Positions 12,645 through 50,700 of a stretch of 64,000 nt of DNA are shown one piece after another (position 1 is the stretch's first letter; every line of letters starts with the position of its first letter). The stretch is taken from the NCBI GenBank assembly GCA_025617745.1, contig CM046858.1, forward strand, positions 44,031,750-44,095,749, in the 5' to 3' direction. The DNA comes from Heliocidaris erythrogramma. Lineage: Eukaryota; Echinodermata; Echinoidea; Camarodonta; Echinometridae. Both the position numbers and the translations under genes were made by a program. The notes beneath the pieces are model-generated. The model saw nothing but the letters and a program-made list of their open reading frames with translations. It was not told the origin of the DNA and made no database searches.

Positions 12645-13721
12645 TCAGCCATCTATTTCCTGGCGGTCAAGACATCTGGGGATGTAAGTCTGGGTGTATC
12701 TGTACCGGCGCATACACTTGTCTTTGGTGATGGCGTCGATGTTCCACCTTGCCACTTGCTGCACAAGACGTGTTCGCCCTTCATTCAAGGTCGCGTCCGC
12801 TTCGTCTGCAGCTGCCCTATCCCCTACCCGCTGCTGCCACTCAGCACGAGCCAAGTCTTGTTTGACGGCCGCCTTAAAGGCGGAGTGTGCCATTTCGGTG
12901 CAGTTGAGAAACGGCGAGTACGGGGGCAGGAGTTTCAAGCTGATCCGGGGTTCAACGTCAGCTGGGAGCTGGGCACGAACGTGTGGCCGGGCATTGTCGT
13001 AAATCAAGCAGATGGCCTCGTCTGCCGGGAACATGTTGGCACACTCTCGTGCTGTTGCAGCTAAGAAATCCTCGAACGATTCCCTCGTCGTCGTCTCGCT
13101 GGACACGGTGTGGTGGACGAGGCCCCCCTCTCCAGATACTGCAAATGTGATGTTGCAGTTTTTTTCCACGCTGACGGTTGACGACGCGACGAACAGGGGT
13201 GCCTCTGGCAGCTCTCCCAAAAGACCTCCTGGTCCAAATGTTTCAGCCGCACTCATCGATGTATACACAATGACTGACGACCCCTTGGGCCATGAACCAC
13301 TGTGCGTACTCTTGGCGCTTTTCCTTGGTTTGGGGGCATTTCTGGCATCAGGAACGTCTTCGGCCAGTTTGAGGGTTATCAGCATCCCATCAAGTGCCCT
13401 GGAGATAGATGTCACGGAAACGGCGGGCTTCTGGGGCAGGGAGGCTTCTAAGTCGCACTTCATTTGCAAAAGAATTGCTAAGGGATTGGCACCAATTATT
13501 TGCTGAAGACGGGCTCGCATGTCCTCAACCTTCACGTTGTTTGCTCCCCCTCTTTGCAATTTGTGACGTCTACCTCCCCTTAGGTAGGTAGCTACTATGG
13601 ATCTTTCAGTGCTCCTGTTGATACCCAGGGTGTCCGCAAGTTGCAGGTAATCTGCCTGATGTCCCTCAAATGCGTCAATAAGTATCTTCGTTTGAAATTC
13701 GCCTATATCTGACGCACGGCT
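12645..13721 (-). pseudogene. DDE transposase pseudogene (IS630/Tc1-mariner type)
   Basis: A decayed transposase. From 13721 downward the frame encodes a helix-turn-helix region (YLQLADTLGINRST), an 'SVTSISRALDGMLITLKL' linker typical of the family, and the catalytic core (LIYDNARPHVRA, LPPYSPFLNCTE). The second Asp and the Glu are separated by 33 residues. The first catalytic Asp is not in this frame. Between about 13335 and 13160 the homologous text (YAQWF, VYIDECG, NIWTRR) reads in another frame and carries a TGA stop at 13243-13245. The main frame resumes at the seven-T run 13159-13165. So two compensating frameshifts plus a stop break it, and no ATG is in frame at the start. The uninterrupted long ORF is therefore misleading. 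Confidence 0.85.
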
Positions 13722-16205: not shown

Positions 16206-33458
<17,253 letters not shown>

Positions 33459-41318: not shown

Positions 41319-41566
41319 TCACTGAGTGATGCAGTTGGTGCCGCAGTCTTCTGTGTATTTATCCTTCAAAATGCATAGGCCCTGATATTTTCTCTCACTG
41401 TGTGATGTAGTGGGTGCCGACGTCTTCTGCATATTTATTAGATATGAAACTGATGGAGATAAAGTTGTCCCCTCACAACATAATTTACATGTACAATTGT
41501 AGGAATGTATCACATCTTCTCCCAGTAGAAGACACTTAAAAATGCATAGACCCTGATCATTTCCTC
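41319..41566 (-). repeat. Two tandem copies of the CEP85 terminal coding end
   Basis: Downstream of the real stop (41567-41569) the sequence coding for DKYAEDVGASCITQ-stop is repeated twice with following UTR. Copy B (41395-41439) reads NKYAEDVGTHYITQ-stop and copy C (41319-41363) reads DKYTEDCGTNCITQ-stop. Each is followed by the diverged block GATCAGGGTCTATGCATTTT / AGTGTCTTCTACTGGGA. Confidence 0.85.
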
Positions 41567-41739
41567 TCATTGAGTGATGCAGGAGGCGCCGACGTCTTCG
41601 GCATATTTATCTGAGACGAGACTTCGGAGGAGATCGATGTCCCCTCTCAGCTTCTGGACCTGTGTCAGCTTTGCTCGGATCACGCCTTCACTTCCTGATT
41701 CATCATCCTCGTCGACGTCAAATCCCATGGCTGATGAAG
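41567..41739 (-). CDS. CEP85: CEP85 exon 12 (C-terminus)
   Basis: Acceptor TTTGACAG|CTTC; codes for an acidic stretch DVDEDDESGSE and then KLTQVQKLRGDIDLLRSLV-SDKYAEDVGASCITQ-stop, the most conserved part of the family. Confidence 0.93.
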
Positions 41740-44700
41740 CTGTCAAAATGAAGTGTGCATAACAATTTAGATGCATGATTATACAGGTACAGCTACATGT
41801 GACGGGTTAAAACAGTTTTCTTGTGACCTGGATATAATTGTGATTCTACTGAATTTTTCTATTTGAATCAAAGAAAAATGGAGGCGTGAGTAGACTTTAT
41901 TTGATGACATGTTTAGCACAAGGCTAATCTGCCACAAGGTCCATTAAATTGTACATCAAACAAGTGTTACATGTACCTACAGGCAAATATTGTGGAGAGG
42001 ATAAATATTAACTTAACTTTCTATATCCAGGTTATTTTCTGATTTAATTTAAAGGAAAATGAGCCTAAGCCTAAGAGCAGGATATTTCTTAAATAGCCTT
42101 GCAATTTTTGAATATCCTTGTGGATATCCATGGTATACGTATATTGGTTAATTCACTTGACTTTCAATCAAGAAGGTGAGGGTTTGAACCCCATCCCAGC
42201 ACTAGTGTTCTTCAGCAAGGCATCAGTCTACTTTTCCCACTCTCCACCCAGGTGTAAATGGGTTCCTAACAAACAAGTAACTGACCATTCCACTCCAAGC
42301 AGGGTAATAATATTGGGGCACCAGGAGCATAGGGGTGTGATGGATGATGTATAATCTATACAATAAGTCACTATTATTGTCCAGATGTGATACCCCAGTC
42401 ACACCAAACTACATTAACTCACACCAACCGATAATCAATAGCTTGGCCATTAGTGGTAATGCACTATTGATTTTTTTTTTCCCCAGCCTTCCGTCAGTCT
42501 AGTACTGTAATTGCAGAAATATTCGCGTTACATTAATTTTCGCGAATTTCGCGCTATTTTCGGCGGGCGCGAATTCTAGAACACGCGAAAATATTAGCAC
42601 GATTTCTTATGCTTTTTTTTTAATGGACGCTGCATTGCGCGCTTCATCTGAATAATACATGTTTGAATCCAATTCACTTTAGAGTGCGTGTGTGTAGTTG
42701 TGTCTGTAGCCTGTAGCATGCATTTGAATGGACCGCGTGTGTGTGAAACAATAAATGGAGTTGCATTTTTGCGAGTAATTGTGCAGCGCGAATATGTTTG
42801 GGGGTAGCTCAGCGCGAAAATTTAATCACGCGAAAATAACAGCATTTACAGTAGTGTCAGACTTATCAGTGTGACTGGGGAATAAGATCGCTAGGAGACC
42901 AACTTACGTCTGAATCCGAGTAGTAGGGACACATTCGGCTCCTGACCCTCGGCCCTCTGATTAACGAGCTCTACTAGTCTCTGAAGCTCCTGGACACATA
43001 GACTAAGTTCCTTGACCAGCTGACCGGTGAAACGAGCCTTGTCCGAGGAGACTTGCTTCTCCAAGCTCTGGACGCTCTCCTGGAGGGAGAGATTGTGGCC
43101 GTAGAGCTCCTGGCTCTGGGAGGAAAGCTGTGAGAGTCATAGACACGTGATATTAGATGGGATCATTGACAAATCATTAGAAAACCATTGGCAAATTGAA
43201 GTCCACAGTGTAACCAATAGCTCAAGATAACCAAGAAACAAATGAATACTGAAATGGATTGTCCCGAAAATGAAACTGTAAAGAAATACTATTTGTGGAT
43301 AATTAAGGCAAGTTTTACTCTACATTTTTTTTTTGTTATCATAACCATTACTGTTTTATTTCTAAGAAAATTTATACACTATATACAAATGGGGTTTAAT
43401 CATATGCAATATGTCCATTGGAAAGATGTGCATAAAAAGAAATAGAAAAACAATAAGTTTACCTTACACCATGTATTAACGACAAAAATTAACAAGAAAA
43501 ATTAACAAGATGGCACTGGGGATACATAAGCTTTCTACAGGAGTGTATTGTTAAAACTGACACATTTCTTTAACCCTTTTGAGACAACTGACCACATATT
43601 GTGGTTTGGCTCAACGTATTTGTATTCAGAGCCTTAAAAATATACCAGATACATGATTAGAAATAGCAAACATTTTTGCACAGACTATGTCCAGTTTTCT
43701 TGCATGACCATATTGCGTTTGATGCCAAGAATTTTAAAAAAGGAGAATAAGCTTTAAAATCCTTAAACTGGCAACACATGAGAGGTTCAAAATCAATGTT
43801 TTTGTCATCAAAGTTGGCAATATTTGTAAAACTTTTCAACAAAGTTCCTAACCATGTATGTTGTTTTCAAAGACATTACATTTTATTAGAACCATGTAGC
43901 ATAAAAAGAGAAATATTTTTGTTACCATTTAGCCTTTAAATAATTCTTGTCATGAAAGGATTAACTGAACCTTTTACCTATCGCTAATAAAGGCTATTTG
44001 CAGCAACAAACATTTATGAATTAAAAATTAAAAGTTGCAACCTGATAATCTCAAAACATCAAACTTTTACAAATTAATTTCATTTTACAAATTTAAATGC
44101 ACATGAAAGTTTCCAGTTTTAAAGTTCTAGCATGATCCTGATCAAGAAAGGAAAGACAGAACCTCACCTCCTTCATAGATCTAGTGATATCACGGAGAGC
44201 CGATTCCTTGTTCTGGAGCTCCACCTTCAACGCTGTGATGACTCCTTCCTCCTGGAGGAGACGTGACTCTGTCTCTTGTAGCGCCCTCTGGTGTTCAATC
44301 TGGACCTTCTGCAGATGCCTGTGCTTGCTGTCTATCACCTGTAATCAAGATTTTCCAATAGAGTGATTTGACAATTTATAACAAACAAATAGTACATGCA
44401 TGAGACAACAATGATCTAGATTATAGTACAGATTCATATACAGACAACAATGATCTAGATTATAGTACAGATTCATATACAGTGAAACCCGTCTACAAAG
44501 ACCACTCAAGGGAGACAAGAAAAGCCGTCCTTATGAGCAGTTGGTCTTTATGTACAGGTTCCTTTAATACGCGTTTCAATGAGAAACACTTTTCAAGGGA
44601 AACAAAAATTACGGTCTTTCTAGACAGGTGGTCTTTCTATACAGGTGGTCGCTAAAGCGGGTTTCACTGTATTAAAGAGAAGGATGAGTTTTGGGAAAGG

Positions 44701-47700
44701 TGAAAAATAATTTGTGAGCTTTCTCATTCCTCTTATGTCAGTTTGGAAGAAGATCATATAGAAATGTCCCCTGAAAAGGATTGCTCTTTAACCCTAAAAG
44801 GCCGGGGGGGGGGGGAATCCACCCCCCCTCGACGTTTCTCGCGATAAATCCGCAACACGCAAAACAGTCGCCGCATCTTTTGAGACCAAATTCGTGATGT
44901 CCAGGCATGCGGTTCCGAAGTTACGCAACATTTCGTACTTGCACGTCAGACCGAAAATTGCTCAAAAACGTGATTTCATGTATAATTTCAATACAAAATG
45001 TGTTTTCAGCCAAAATTTAGAAATCTATATTTTTACATTTGCTGATTGAAATTAATTTATTTTAGGCTGTTTATGTTTGCGAAAGTGTCCCCGACAAATT
45101 TCATCCAAAAAACAATAAAAAAACAAAAAGTAAAAAAACAAAGAAATACATAAGAAATTTTAAATACAATAAAATACATAAGAAATCAATTTTGATTCCG
45201 AATTTTTTTCAAGTATATTTGCTAAGAATACTGGAAAGAGTGTCTAGACCAAAAATTAGCATATTTTTAGCTTTATTTAATGATTTAATGATTTAGAGCC
45301 AAATTTTGATTTCATGCATAAATTTGCATAATTAATTAATGTGCAAATTTTTCGCAGCATTTAACCAGACAGTTTTGTAGATTACGTTGTGGGTGACGTG
45401 CGTGCTGATTTTCGGCGTGATCGCACACGATCTTGTACAAGAAACAAAAACTTATGAAATAATTTGAACGGTCACGATTTACCTCTTAATTTACTCTTAA
45501 CCCTAAAAAGACTAGGGGGGGGGCCTTTTAGGCCTCCCCCCCTCGACATAAACTGATTATTTTGTAACGCTTAAAGATTTCGCGCTGCTGTTTCATGACT
45601 TTTTTTTTAGACTTTTGCGCAACTTTTGATACCAAATTTGCATGCCCCGCGTGTATGATAACAGAGTTATGTCATGTTTTCACAAGGCATGTCAAGAAAA
45701 ATTTGATATTTTGCATTCGTTTGTGTGTAAAGTCAATGGGGACTGGAATGAATATTACAGATACTGTTTTCAAACTATTTTTTCATATTTTCCAAAATAA
45801 GAATAAGATTAATTTGACTATGCATTCATGTATAAAACATAATGAACTATGTATATACCAAATTTGGTTGCAATCGGACAATCAACAGCCGAGATCTTGG
45901 GGGCCCTTTAGGCCCCCCCCCCCCCCCCAGTTTTTCCAGCCTCCAAAATACCCCAGTCTTTTTAGGGTTAAAGGAACAGAGGGGTAAGACTGATACATTT
46001 CAAAATACTGCATATTTCTTTATGAAATCATATACAATATAGTGCCATTAATGATCATCTGAAGATGTGTCTTCTAGTCACTTACCTTCTTCAGATGTTC
46101 CACGCTTGAAGAATGTCTTTTGTTCTCTTCTCTAAGGTGTTCAATATCTCCCCTGCTGCATAGCTCAAAATCAGTTGGGTCACCAGTCTCCTTTGATCCC
46201 AATGCTTTCTGTAGTTTAGACATCTCTTTCTTCATCCTGCAAAATTGCATAAAATGGTCAGAAAATGTCATATGAAGAAACACACCATCCTTAGAAGAAA
46301 AAGAAAATTAGCACGGCTTCAAACCAGCTTAATAACAGACCATCATTTAAAGGATAATGTAATCTGGCTTTATAGCAGGGGGCCGTTTCATCAGGTGTCT
46401 TGTCGGTGAGTTTACTGACAACTTTGCTCTCAACCAATCAGATGCAAGGATGTCAGGAGCTTATAACAGTTATTGTAACTTGTCATTGATGACAAGTTTT
46501 ATGAAACAGGGTCCTGGAATCTGTTTACCCTTGGTCCAAATTGAATGCAATATGGCCTTGTGGCATCACAGCAGAGTGATTTGCAAGGACCAAGATCAAG
46601 GCTAACTTGCATATATAACATCCACGTCATGACTGATTTATTAACATCAGGACCCTGTTTCATAAAACTTGTCATCAATAACAAGTTGCAATAACTGTTT
46701 GAGCTACTGAAATCCTTGCATCCGATTGGCTGAGAGCAAATTTGTTCGGTAAAAATCACTGACAAGACACTTGATGAAACGCCCCCAGAAGATACCTTTG
46801 TCATGAAGAATGAAAAAAAATTGCCTTAGGTATCCCCTTTTTTTGTGTGTGAAGTCCCCTCTGCTTGGTATCAACTCCAAGGGTGTTATGCACTGGTGAG
46901 CACCTTGGTTGCGAATTAACCCATAGACTACGTGAACCGGGTGGCTCCTGTATAAAGCCTATGAGAGTTAAAGAGTTCAGTAGCCAACGGGTTAATACCT
47001 TTCTATCTCAGCCTCTAGAGTATGCTTCTTTTCTTCAAGATCTGTTGACTCCTGTTTATTCCTATGAGCCTTCTGCTTGGCCTTGGAGAGAGATGCCTCC
47101 AGACTGACGATGCGTTCCCGTAGCAACCCCTCCTGCTGGCGTAGATCCCGGATGTGTTCAAAAGATGTTGTCAAGGAACAATGTTTGATGTTGTGGTTGC
47201 CGAAAAGACACGATCTCTTCCAAAGCACTCTAGCACTCAGTCTTAAAAAGATATTCACAAATTTATTTTACAGTAATGCTAGGATCAAACAACAACGATG
47301 ATAATGATCATAGTTGGGTTTGGTTTACCATATATAATAGAATCTGTATGTGGTTGGGAGAAAGCGTATGAAAAGGATGAGGTAATCAGTTGGCTCACTG
47401 CCATGAATACAATATGTAATCCATACTGGGTGCCCATCTCTGTTGACACTCTCCAGTGTGTATGGTTTTCACAGCAAGTCCAACAACCTATTGTTGAGTG
47501 GTATTGAATACAAAGATAGATTGCAATTTTCCTTGTCCAAACAATTAATTGAATGGTCATAATTGACACAAAAGGCATAAAGGCTCAATATAAACAGGAA
47601 ACATGATGGGGTAAACCACTTTTTTGCAAAAAAAGAACAAAATTAAACAATCCTGGAGGAGTTCTCATTTCTGTAAAATCTTGTAATACCTTACATAGAT

Positions 47701-50700
47701 CAGGGATTGGATGTACAGGGTATTACTGTGCACTGCTATGTATTTTTGAGCCCATATTGCCTCTTATCAATCATTTAAATATTCGCCTTTGCCACATCAG
47801 TTGTTTTTATGCAATTTACCTCCTCGTGTCTGAAAGAGAGCTTAAAAAGGGCTTGTGTCTTTAAAAAAAAAAAGGGGTACGGGTGATTTCTAAATGAAAG
47901 GATATCGTATCACAGCTCTCCTTGTACTCATCAGCCGTGGGTAAGTCATGCATGTATTTCTCTATCTTATTCAGTCTCTTCTTCAGCTTGTCATAGTCCT
48001 TCTTACTATGCAGCAGTTGACCTTTGACCTCCTGAAGCTCAGCCTCCTTCAGCTTCAACTGGAAAACAAGATGAAAGTGAAACCTATGTGAACAACAAAG
48101 CCTCACTGAATTGTTGTGTCAGTACCACATTACTTCACTCTACTGAGAACATCTTTATACGGTATCATGAGAAAAATAAATAAAACTTGCAAGAAAACAC
48201 AGAACATGAAAAATGACAATATTAGAGCAAGAAAAAAAGAGAAGAGACATGGGAGAGGTGGAACAAAGAGGATACAGAGATGGGGGAAGTGGTAGAAAAC
48301 GAAATATCTTATTAAGTTCTTATTTAGTTAAAATTCGACATCTATAAAAAGGACAGAAAGGGAGAGGGAGAGAGAGGGGGTGGGGAGAGGTCTGGAAGGA
48401 AGGCAGAAAAAAGCAAACAGCCACAATCCAGTACATACCTTTGTTTTGAGTTCATTAATAGTCATTTCATTGGTGAGTTGAGATTCCTCCACTTCCCTAA
48501 GGAACAAATGGGAAAAGGGCAATAATCCCATTACATGTACATGATAAAAGAATCCCATCTTATTACGCCAATATACATACACAAACTAGAATTTCATGAT
48601 TACATATATATTATTAGGACAGCATTCCTAGTCTTCCGACTGTAAACATAATTGTACCGTTTCCGAGTGAACACTGATGTCAATCATAGAAGCTCAGGCT
48701 GTAAAATGTTCCGGTTTATATAATTTCACAGATGACTAATTATTGCAAAGCTGACAACAATCATAATTCCACCTACCCTAATTTTCGGCTGAGTTGTTCT
48801 CCTTCAGCCATCTTAGCAGTAGAGACCTCCGCCAGCTGAGCTCTTAGAGATGCAATCTCATACTGATACTCCTGGGTATAGAGAGTATAATACAAAGAAA
48901 TGACATTCAAAGCAAAAATGAAACATGAACACTCTTATGACAAAAGCATGGAACTTTTCAAATGGGGTGATCATTATGCTCATCCACAATCTTTGATTCG
49001 ACAGGCAGAGGTTGACCAAGTCAAACCAAGTTTAAAGCTCAGAGCAAAAACCATGTCATCCTTCTACTCTCAGCATTACAATGTACATTTGGATATTCGA
49101 TATTAGTATCTCACCTGCATCTTAAGAAATAGCATATCTCCTTCATCCCTGGATCTAGTAAAGATGCGTTGCCTAGCGATATTCTCCTGCTCATCGTTCT
49201 GTTTCCTCAGATGCGCAATCTCCAGCTTTTGCCTGAAAAGATGATGCAATAAAAAACACTTGAATTCTTGTAACACCATGAAAACTGGCTTTAATTTTCA
49301 GGGCATATAAAAAGTACTATCAGCACAAGCTTCAATATGAATACATAAAATGTATCTTGTCAATTAAATTGCTTTCATAAGGCAAAGTACAGTAGGTAGT
49401 CAAATTGCAGTTGGCACAAAGGTCCATCAGAAACATATTCGACGCAGTCATTCAATTTTTCATGCCTTGCACTTTTACATACATTTGTACATGTTTTGAA
49501 ATAATTATAAAAAATATCACATATTACAAACACTAATCCAATCATTAAATTTGTGCTACTGCATAATGATCTAAAATTTCAATTACAAAAAAATAAACCA
49601 CGTGAATGACATGTCTAATGGATGTGTTCTTGGTGTGTAAGACCACTGTCCTAGCCTTATTTGTACATTCTCACACTTTTCCGCAGCATAGGTACATGTA
49701 TGTACAACATGTATGCACATTTTGTCATATTTTTCTTAAAAATACAGTATGAACAAATTATTTTGTTCATTTATTACATATTGGAAAGTTGGAAATAAAT
49801 GCTGAAAAACTGAAATTGAATTGAATTGAATTGAATTGAATTGAAGACTAAAAATTCCATCAAACTTTCAATAATTGAGTGATATGAGCCATGGGATGTA
49901 CACAAAAACAACTCTTAAATGTAAAGTATTTCGTGGTACATATACATGTATATGCTCACCTTTCAATAACAATATTCCTCTCATGAAGCATATTTTCCTT
50001 GGCCCTAATCAGTCCCTCCATATTGGTGGGCTCTGAACTCATCACCGCCCCATAACTGAAATTGGAATCTCCCACATGGTAGCCCATCCCTGCTGCATGC
50101 ATGGGCATATCATGGCCTGCTCCACTCCTACCAGAGGGGTGGTAAGCAGGGTTGAGTTGGAGGTGCTGCATCTGCTGCTGGAGACCAAACTGAGAGTCCA
50201 AGTTCTGCTGCCACTGGGATAAGTTCATCTTTGTGTGGAACGGGACCGGATTCCCTGCTGCCCTGGATCCACGACCCAAGTCAGAAGGTCCAGGATACTT
50301 GGAATAGTCCGGAGGACCATAACCAGAATCTCCAAATGCACTAGAGTATGATCGAGGGCTCTTGTTCATGGGATGTTGCAACACCTTGGAGTAGCTGGAG
50401 AGATGGGAATGATGAGATGCTGGGGACCGATGGGATGGGTTCTTTTCCATCAAGGTGGTATCAGGGACCATGTCTGTTTCATTGAGAGTGTTATCCCAGT
50501 CCAAAGGGAGGAACGTATCGTCTGGTTCCAGGTTCGATATCTTTGGGTCATTGTCGACAAAAAGGGCTGGATCGTGACCGTCTGTCATGGTGGTGACGTC
50601 TTCACTGCCATCACCCACACGAGCTCTTGGACTCATCTGCCTTTCTCGCTGTGGGGTTCTAATGTGGCTCCCTTTATAACAATGGACAATGTTGAAAAAC

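Follow-up and report, generated by a model that had tools for sequence, protein, structure and literature searches.

Introns of the U12 type carry a 5′ splice site with the consensus ATATCCTT(T) and a branch site with the consensus TTCCTTRAY near the intron 3′ end. In the part of PMC7367187 used here, AT-AC termini account for 26% of human U12 introns and for 8-25% of those in the other tabulated animals with U12 introns, with the fruit fly at 47%, and phase 0 is reported to be a position that U12 introns tend to avoid. A preliminary description of the locus presented below had called AT-AC introns a small minority even among U12 introns, which does not agree with the human figure. The sections of a pan-eukaryotic survey on which we draw (PMC10639083) state that deuterostomes, except tunicates, have minor-intron densities like those of vertebrates, and that human and acorn worm have 127 minor introns in common in aligned genes. 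For human genes of the cilium and the centrosome, minor introns have already been discussed, with IFT88, IFT74, IFT80 and CEP41 as examples (PMC13216214, in the excerpt available). The intron described here likewise has a centrosomal host gene, of the CEP85 family, and CEP85 is not named in that excerpt. A literature search linking CEP85, CEP85L or CCDC21 to U12/minor splicing, with supplementary catalogues outside its range, retrieved no report, and the papers listed by broader searches showed nothing on CEP85. The names CEP85 and CCDC21 are absent from the main text of the study of the minor-splicing factor CENATAC (PMC8280824).

The window analysed, a 64-kb stretch of the Heliocidaris erythrogramma genome, contains on its minus strand a gene whose coding sequence is divided by an intron with AT at 47905 and AC at 47154 (Table 1). 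The upstream exon terminates ...GCTGTGATACG (...GATGAGTACAAGGAGAGCTGTGATACG) and the bases after its edge are ATATCCTTTCATTT; the downstream exon opens ATCCGGGATC (ATCCGGGATCTACG) and is preceded by ...TTGTTCCTTGACAACATCTTTTGAACAC. The intron begins with the 5′ splice site ATATCCTTT and ends ...TTTTGAACAC, and the branch motif TTCCTTGAC places the predicted branch A 17 nt ahead of the final base of the intron. The match to U12 signals claimed in the preliminary description holds, since the donor and the branch motif agree with the consensus at all positions and the AC end is present. The intron closes with a tandem ACAC, of which the second AC is the only one in frame with the 47905 donor. The first (47157-47156) lies 15 nt from branch A and has similar plausibility by distance, and its use shifts the frame; the second would be the one chosen.

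A GT-AG intron precedes the upstream exon, which begins in phase 0, and a second one follows the downstream exon, which finishes in phase 2. These two neighbouring introns set the frame on either side of the AT-AC intron. Joining 47906 to 47153 was found to give a single open frame, ...DEYKESCDT|IRDLRQQEGLLRERIV..., which remains open from the exon at 49232 through the exon ending at 46086. The gene model comprises seven exons from 49232 to 42917, with the exon at 44338-44168, whose end was counted by hand, omitted from the joined frame. A further exon downstream is the probable last coding exon, as judged by its position, its frame and its likeness to the CEP85 C-terminus.

Table 1. Features of the CEP85-family gene and of its AT-AC intron (window coordinates; exons 7 and 8 as numbered in the preliminary description).
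Feature	Coordinates	Strand	Basis
Coding exon, GT-AG flanks	49115..49232	-	sequence + frame
Coding exon, GT-AG flanks	48777..48871	-	sequence + frame
Preceding coding exon, GT-AG flanks	48439..48496	-	sequence + frame
Upstream exon (exon 7), LKLKEAEL...DEYKESCDT	47906..48058	-	sequence + frame
AT-AC intron, 752 nt, phase 0	47154..47905	-	sequence + frame
U12-type 5′ splice site ATATCCTTT	47897..47905	-	motif; U6atac/U11 duplexes
U12-type branch site TTCCTTGAC, predicted branch A 47171	47170..47178	-	motif; U12 duplex
3′ splice site AC, second of tandem ACAC	47154..47155	-	frame with 47905 donor
Downstream exon (exon 8), IRDLRQQEG...EAEIE, phase-2 end	46999..47153	-	sequence + frame
Coding exon, supplies start of CC4 match	46086..46236	-	Pfam + frame
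CC4 exon VIDSKHRH...SMKE	44168..44338	-	Pfam + PDB match; end coordinate hand-counted
CC4/C-terminal exon LSSQSQELYGHNLSL...	42908..43127	-	Pfam match; end coordinate hand-counted
Probable last coding exon, ...DKYAEDVGASCITQ + stop	41567..41739	-	position + frame; coordinates hand-counted

Compared with the U12 AT-AC subtype as catalogued (Intron Annotation and Orthology Database; intronIC), the intron shows no difference in kind: it has the same termini, the 9-base donor, the branch motif and a short branch-to-end distance, and the cognate snRNA genes lie in the same genome. Its phase, 0, is under-represented among U12 introns, and the 17 nt from branch to AC are rather long relative to the typical range.

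The host gene was identified through its downstream exons, which matched the Pfam domain CC4_CEP85 (PF24555) with E=3.5e-22 (score 79 bits, cut-off 27.3) and the crystal construct of human CEP85 in PDB entry 5oi7 with E=4.4e-7. Neither Pfam nor PDB returned a CEP85 match for the exons flanking the intron, searched together with their neighbours, and therefore the identity rests on the downstream exons. By these domain matches the gene is a member of the CEP85 family, and the name given in the preliminary description is right at that level. The gene has the CC4 coiled-coil domain in common with CEP85/CEP85L (Pfam, human CEP85 PDB chain), and it is assigned to the family as a whole and to neither of the two vertebrate paralogues. 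When 281 residues of its protein were searched against the whole genome, five matches were returned, each falling on an exon of this same gene, and in contrast to the paralogues of vertebrates the gene appears, by the residues searched, to be present in a single copy. The same five matches included no retrocopy that would show the exon junction in the manner of a natural cDNA. In the STIL-binding part of CC4 (43127-42908, minus strand), human Q640 is retained and human E644 is replaced by G (own numbering, 5oi7 alignment); Q640 is named in the part of PMC5928214 used here.

The chance expectation of the two motifs was estimated for the whole window, both strands included. The donor ATATCCTTT occurs twice, at 22944 (plus) and 47905 (minus), as does TTCCTTRAC followed by AC, at 43008 (plus) and 47178 (minus). 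Only 47905 and 47178 form a pair in the correct order within 5 kb. In 150 first-order Markov simulations, the means per 64 kb were 1.43 donors, 0.67 branch-plus-AC sites and 0.13 pairs anywhere. If the motifs have to stand at these two exon edges, with about 60 donor positions and 40 branch positions allowed, arithmetic from the simulated rates gives a chance expectation of ~1e-7. The preliminary proposal of an AT-AC intron whose branch site lies 17 nt from its end was confirmed by the sequence, by the frame and by the only such motif pair within 5 kb in the window. We estimate a probability of about 95% that this stretch is an AT-AC intron of the U12 (minor-spliceosome) type, lying in a CEP85 gene that is seemingly single-copy in the genome. 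Judged from its sequence, it is very probably a real and ordinary representative of this type, and the transcript would be spliced from 47906 to 47153.

To compare this join with others, all in-frame, stop-free joins of the two exons were enumerated, giving 30 GT-AG, 59 GC-AG, 72 AT-AC, 84 AT-AG and 35 GT-AC joins. The earlier statement that no GT-AG choice exists in frame is therefore incorrect, although every one of the 30 alters the protein. Among them are the joins on which U2-type splicing with weak sites would depend. Such splicing would use a donor at 47927 (TGA|GTACAA), 47913 (GCT|GTGATA) or 47880 (CCC|GTACCC), together with an AG upstream of IRDL, by which residues are added, or an AG inside exon 8, by which residues are lost. 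These three donors near the exon end serve 11 of the 30 joins, and with a pyrimidine content of 0.69 the AG before 47241 resembles several acceptors in the gene model. However, all 11 joins were inspected and found to insert or delete residues, and the donors score only -3.2, 0.0 and -2.6 on a human donor matrix, on which seven other donors, including 54628 and 49959 in exons of putative membership in the gene, score 3.8 to 12.5. The other GTs in the upstream exon are only those at 48028, 48021 and 48006; the remaining 19 joins need one of these and therefore lose at least 101 nt of the exon. A variant of U2-type splicing with the better donor 48006 (5.3 on the same matrix) would cost 101 nt of exon 7. 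On the acceptor side, no AG was found near the edge of the downstream exon between those ending just before 47214, the nearest upstream, and just before 47135. A U2-type AG is thus absent from the exon edge, and no AG-ending intron can stop there. Because of this gap and the positions of the GTs, no GT-AG join keeps both exon edges, and residues are added or lost in each case.

The AT-AC join also ranked first of the 280 joins in the five dinucleotide classes when each was scored against a segment of human CEP85 of provisional sequence (93, compared to 73 for the best GT-AG join). The alignment with this segment is gap-free at the junction, as the preliminary description had claimed for vertebrate CEP85, with one gap further upstream. 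This top score is a lead and not a test, and a search of the literature for printed human CEP85 peptides that could confirm the segment found none. The GT-AG, GC-AG, AT-AG and GT-AC joins were rejected, as all scored below the AT-AC join on the provisional segment and the GT donors close to the end of the exon score very poorly. Weak U2-type sites would moreover leave both full U12 motifs without explanation, and we consider splicing through them very improbable.

Two U2-type introns flanking an unseen cassette exon within 47905-47154 would also dispense with a minor intron. An enumeration of exons of 20-250 nt with a donor score of at least 3.8 and a pyrimidine content of at least 0.5, weaker sites being dropped, gave 17 frame-specific candidates, the best at 47858-47820 (pyrimidine 0.94, donor 7.8). 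By eye, a 10-nt micro-exon with good sites, below the length limit, can be placed at 47829-47820 between CTCTCTTTCAG and GTAAAT, but alone it shifts the frame. The peptides of the candidates, again by eye, are unlike the flanking coiled coil. Any such exon would still need a strong donor towards the end of exon 7 and an AG at the border of exon 8, and both are missing. As neither edge has a good U2-type site, the cassette exons of 20-250 nt were rejected, and we regard this arrangement as highly unlikely.

The components that a U12-type intron would require were sought in the genome to which the window belongs (1.064 Gb, 26 contigs). Matches over the cut-off were obtained for U12 (11), U6atac (7, of which two match the model partially), U4atac (1) and U11 (5). 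The seven loci inspected out of 17 showed the stretches by which U12, U6atac and U11 are expected to pair. In calculations with short stretches, the donor ATATCCTTT formed a duplex of -11.1 kcal/mol with the genome's own U6atac and of -4.9 kcal/mol with U11, and no stable duplex (+1.2 kcal/mol) with a generic U1 stretch. The branch motif TTCCTTGAC gave -7.1 kcal/mol with the genome's own U12, compared to -1.1 kcal/mol with a short U2 stretch. Removal of the AT-AC intron by the major spliceosome is the least probable of the alternatives: such introns exist, and the available part of PMC8280824 speaks of 85 major AT-AC introns or related subtypes, but the donor and the branch motif are here full U12 motifs, and the U1 and U2 values, although obtained with generic or short stretches, also speak against it.

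In minor splicing of this intron, U11 and then U6atac would recognise ATATCCTTT, and U12 would pair with TTCCTTGAC, leaving branch A bulged out. The cut would fall at the AC 17 nt past branch A and join ...CDT to IRDL... in phase 0. According to the part of PMC8280824 consulted, CENATAC promotes the splicing of AT-AN minor introns in human cells, where its depletion affected 92% of A-type versus 24% of G-type minor introns. Three exon matches to CENATAC/CCDC84 over the cut-off were found on a single contig (C2). Two of the three matched stretches hold stop codons in a six-frame reading, and the locus is a candidate gene, whose product would presumably act at the AT-AC intron of CEP85. What was observed, all in one genome, are the splice sites with their reading frame, the membership of the gene in its family, the snRNA genes and the CENATAC exon matches.

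The intron represents a new and clear-cut case of a type that is already well known, and existing knowledge of minor introns is unchanged by it. It adds one entry to the U12 intron catalogues and corrects the model of a centrosomal gene that a predictor restricted to GT-AG introns would probably break. In this animal, it also provides a simple means of reading out minor splicing.

Several other features were noted in the window and the genome. Inside the AT-AC intron, at 47858-47820 (minus strand), cryptic U2-type mini-exons are possible: they would be framed by a good GT donor and by pyrimidine-rich AGs that stand before 47858 and, as judged by eye, before 47829. The intron after exon 8 contains nested inverted repeats (46379-46786, arms of 35-52 nt, 89-96%) that resemble a small foldback/MITE-type element. 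Beyond the 3′ end of the probable last exon, at 41322-41472 (minus strand), two further frames end in SNKYAEDVGTHYITQ and DKYTEDCGTNCITQ, near-copies of the tail DKYAEDVGASCITQ that look as if the tail had been duplicated. A 358-residue open frame at 12648-13721 (minus strand) has a DDE_3 transposase domain (E=2.5e-12). At 26291-28611 (plus strand), two open frames match the thiolase N-terminal domain, one over the cut-off and one below it, and this region is probably an acetyl-CoA acetyltransferase gene on the strand opposite CEP85. Elsewhere in the genome, 10 of the 11 U12 matches fall into two groups on contig C6 (C6:35735849-36367688), and all five U11 matches lie within 36 kb on contig C15 (C15:19734588-19770075).
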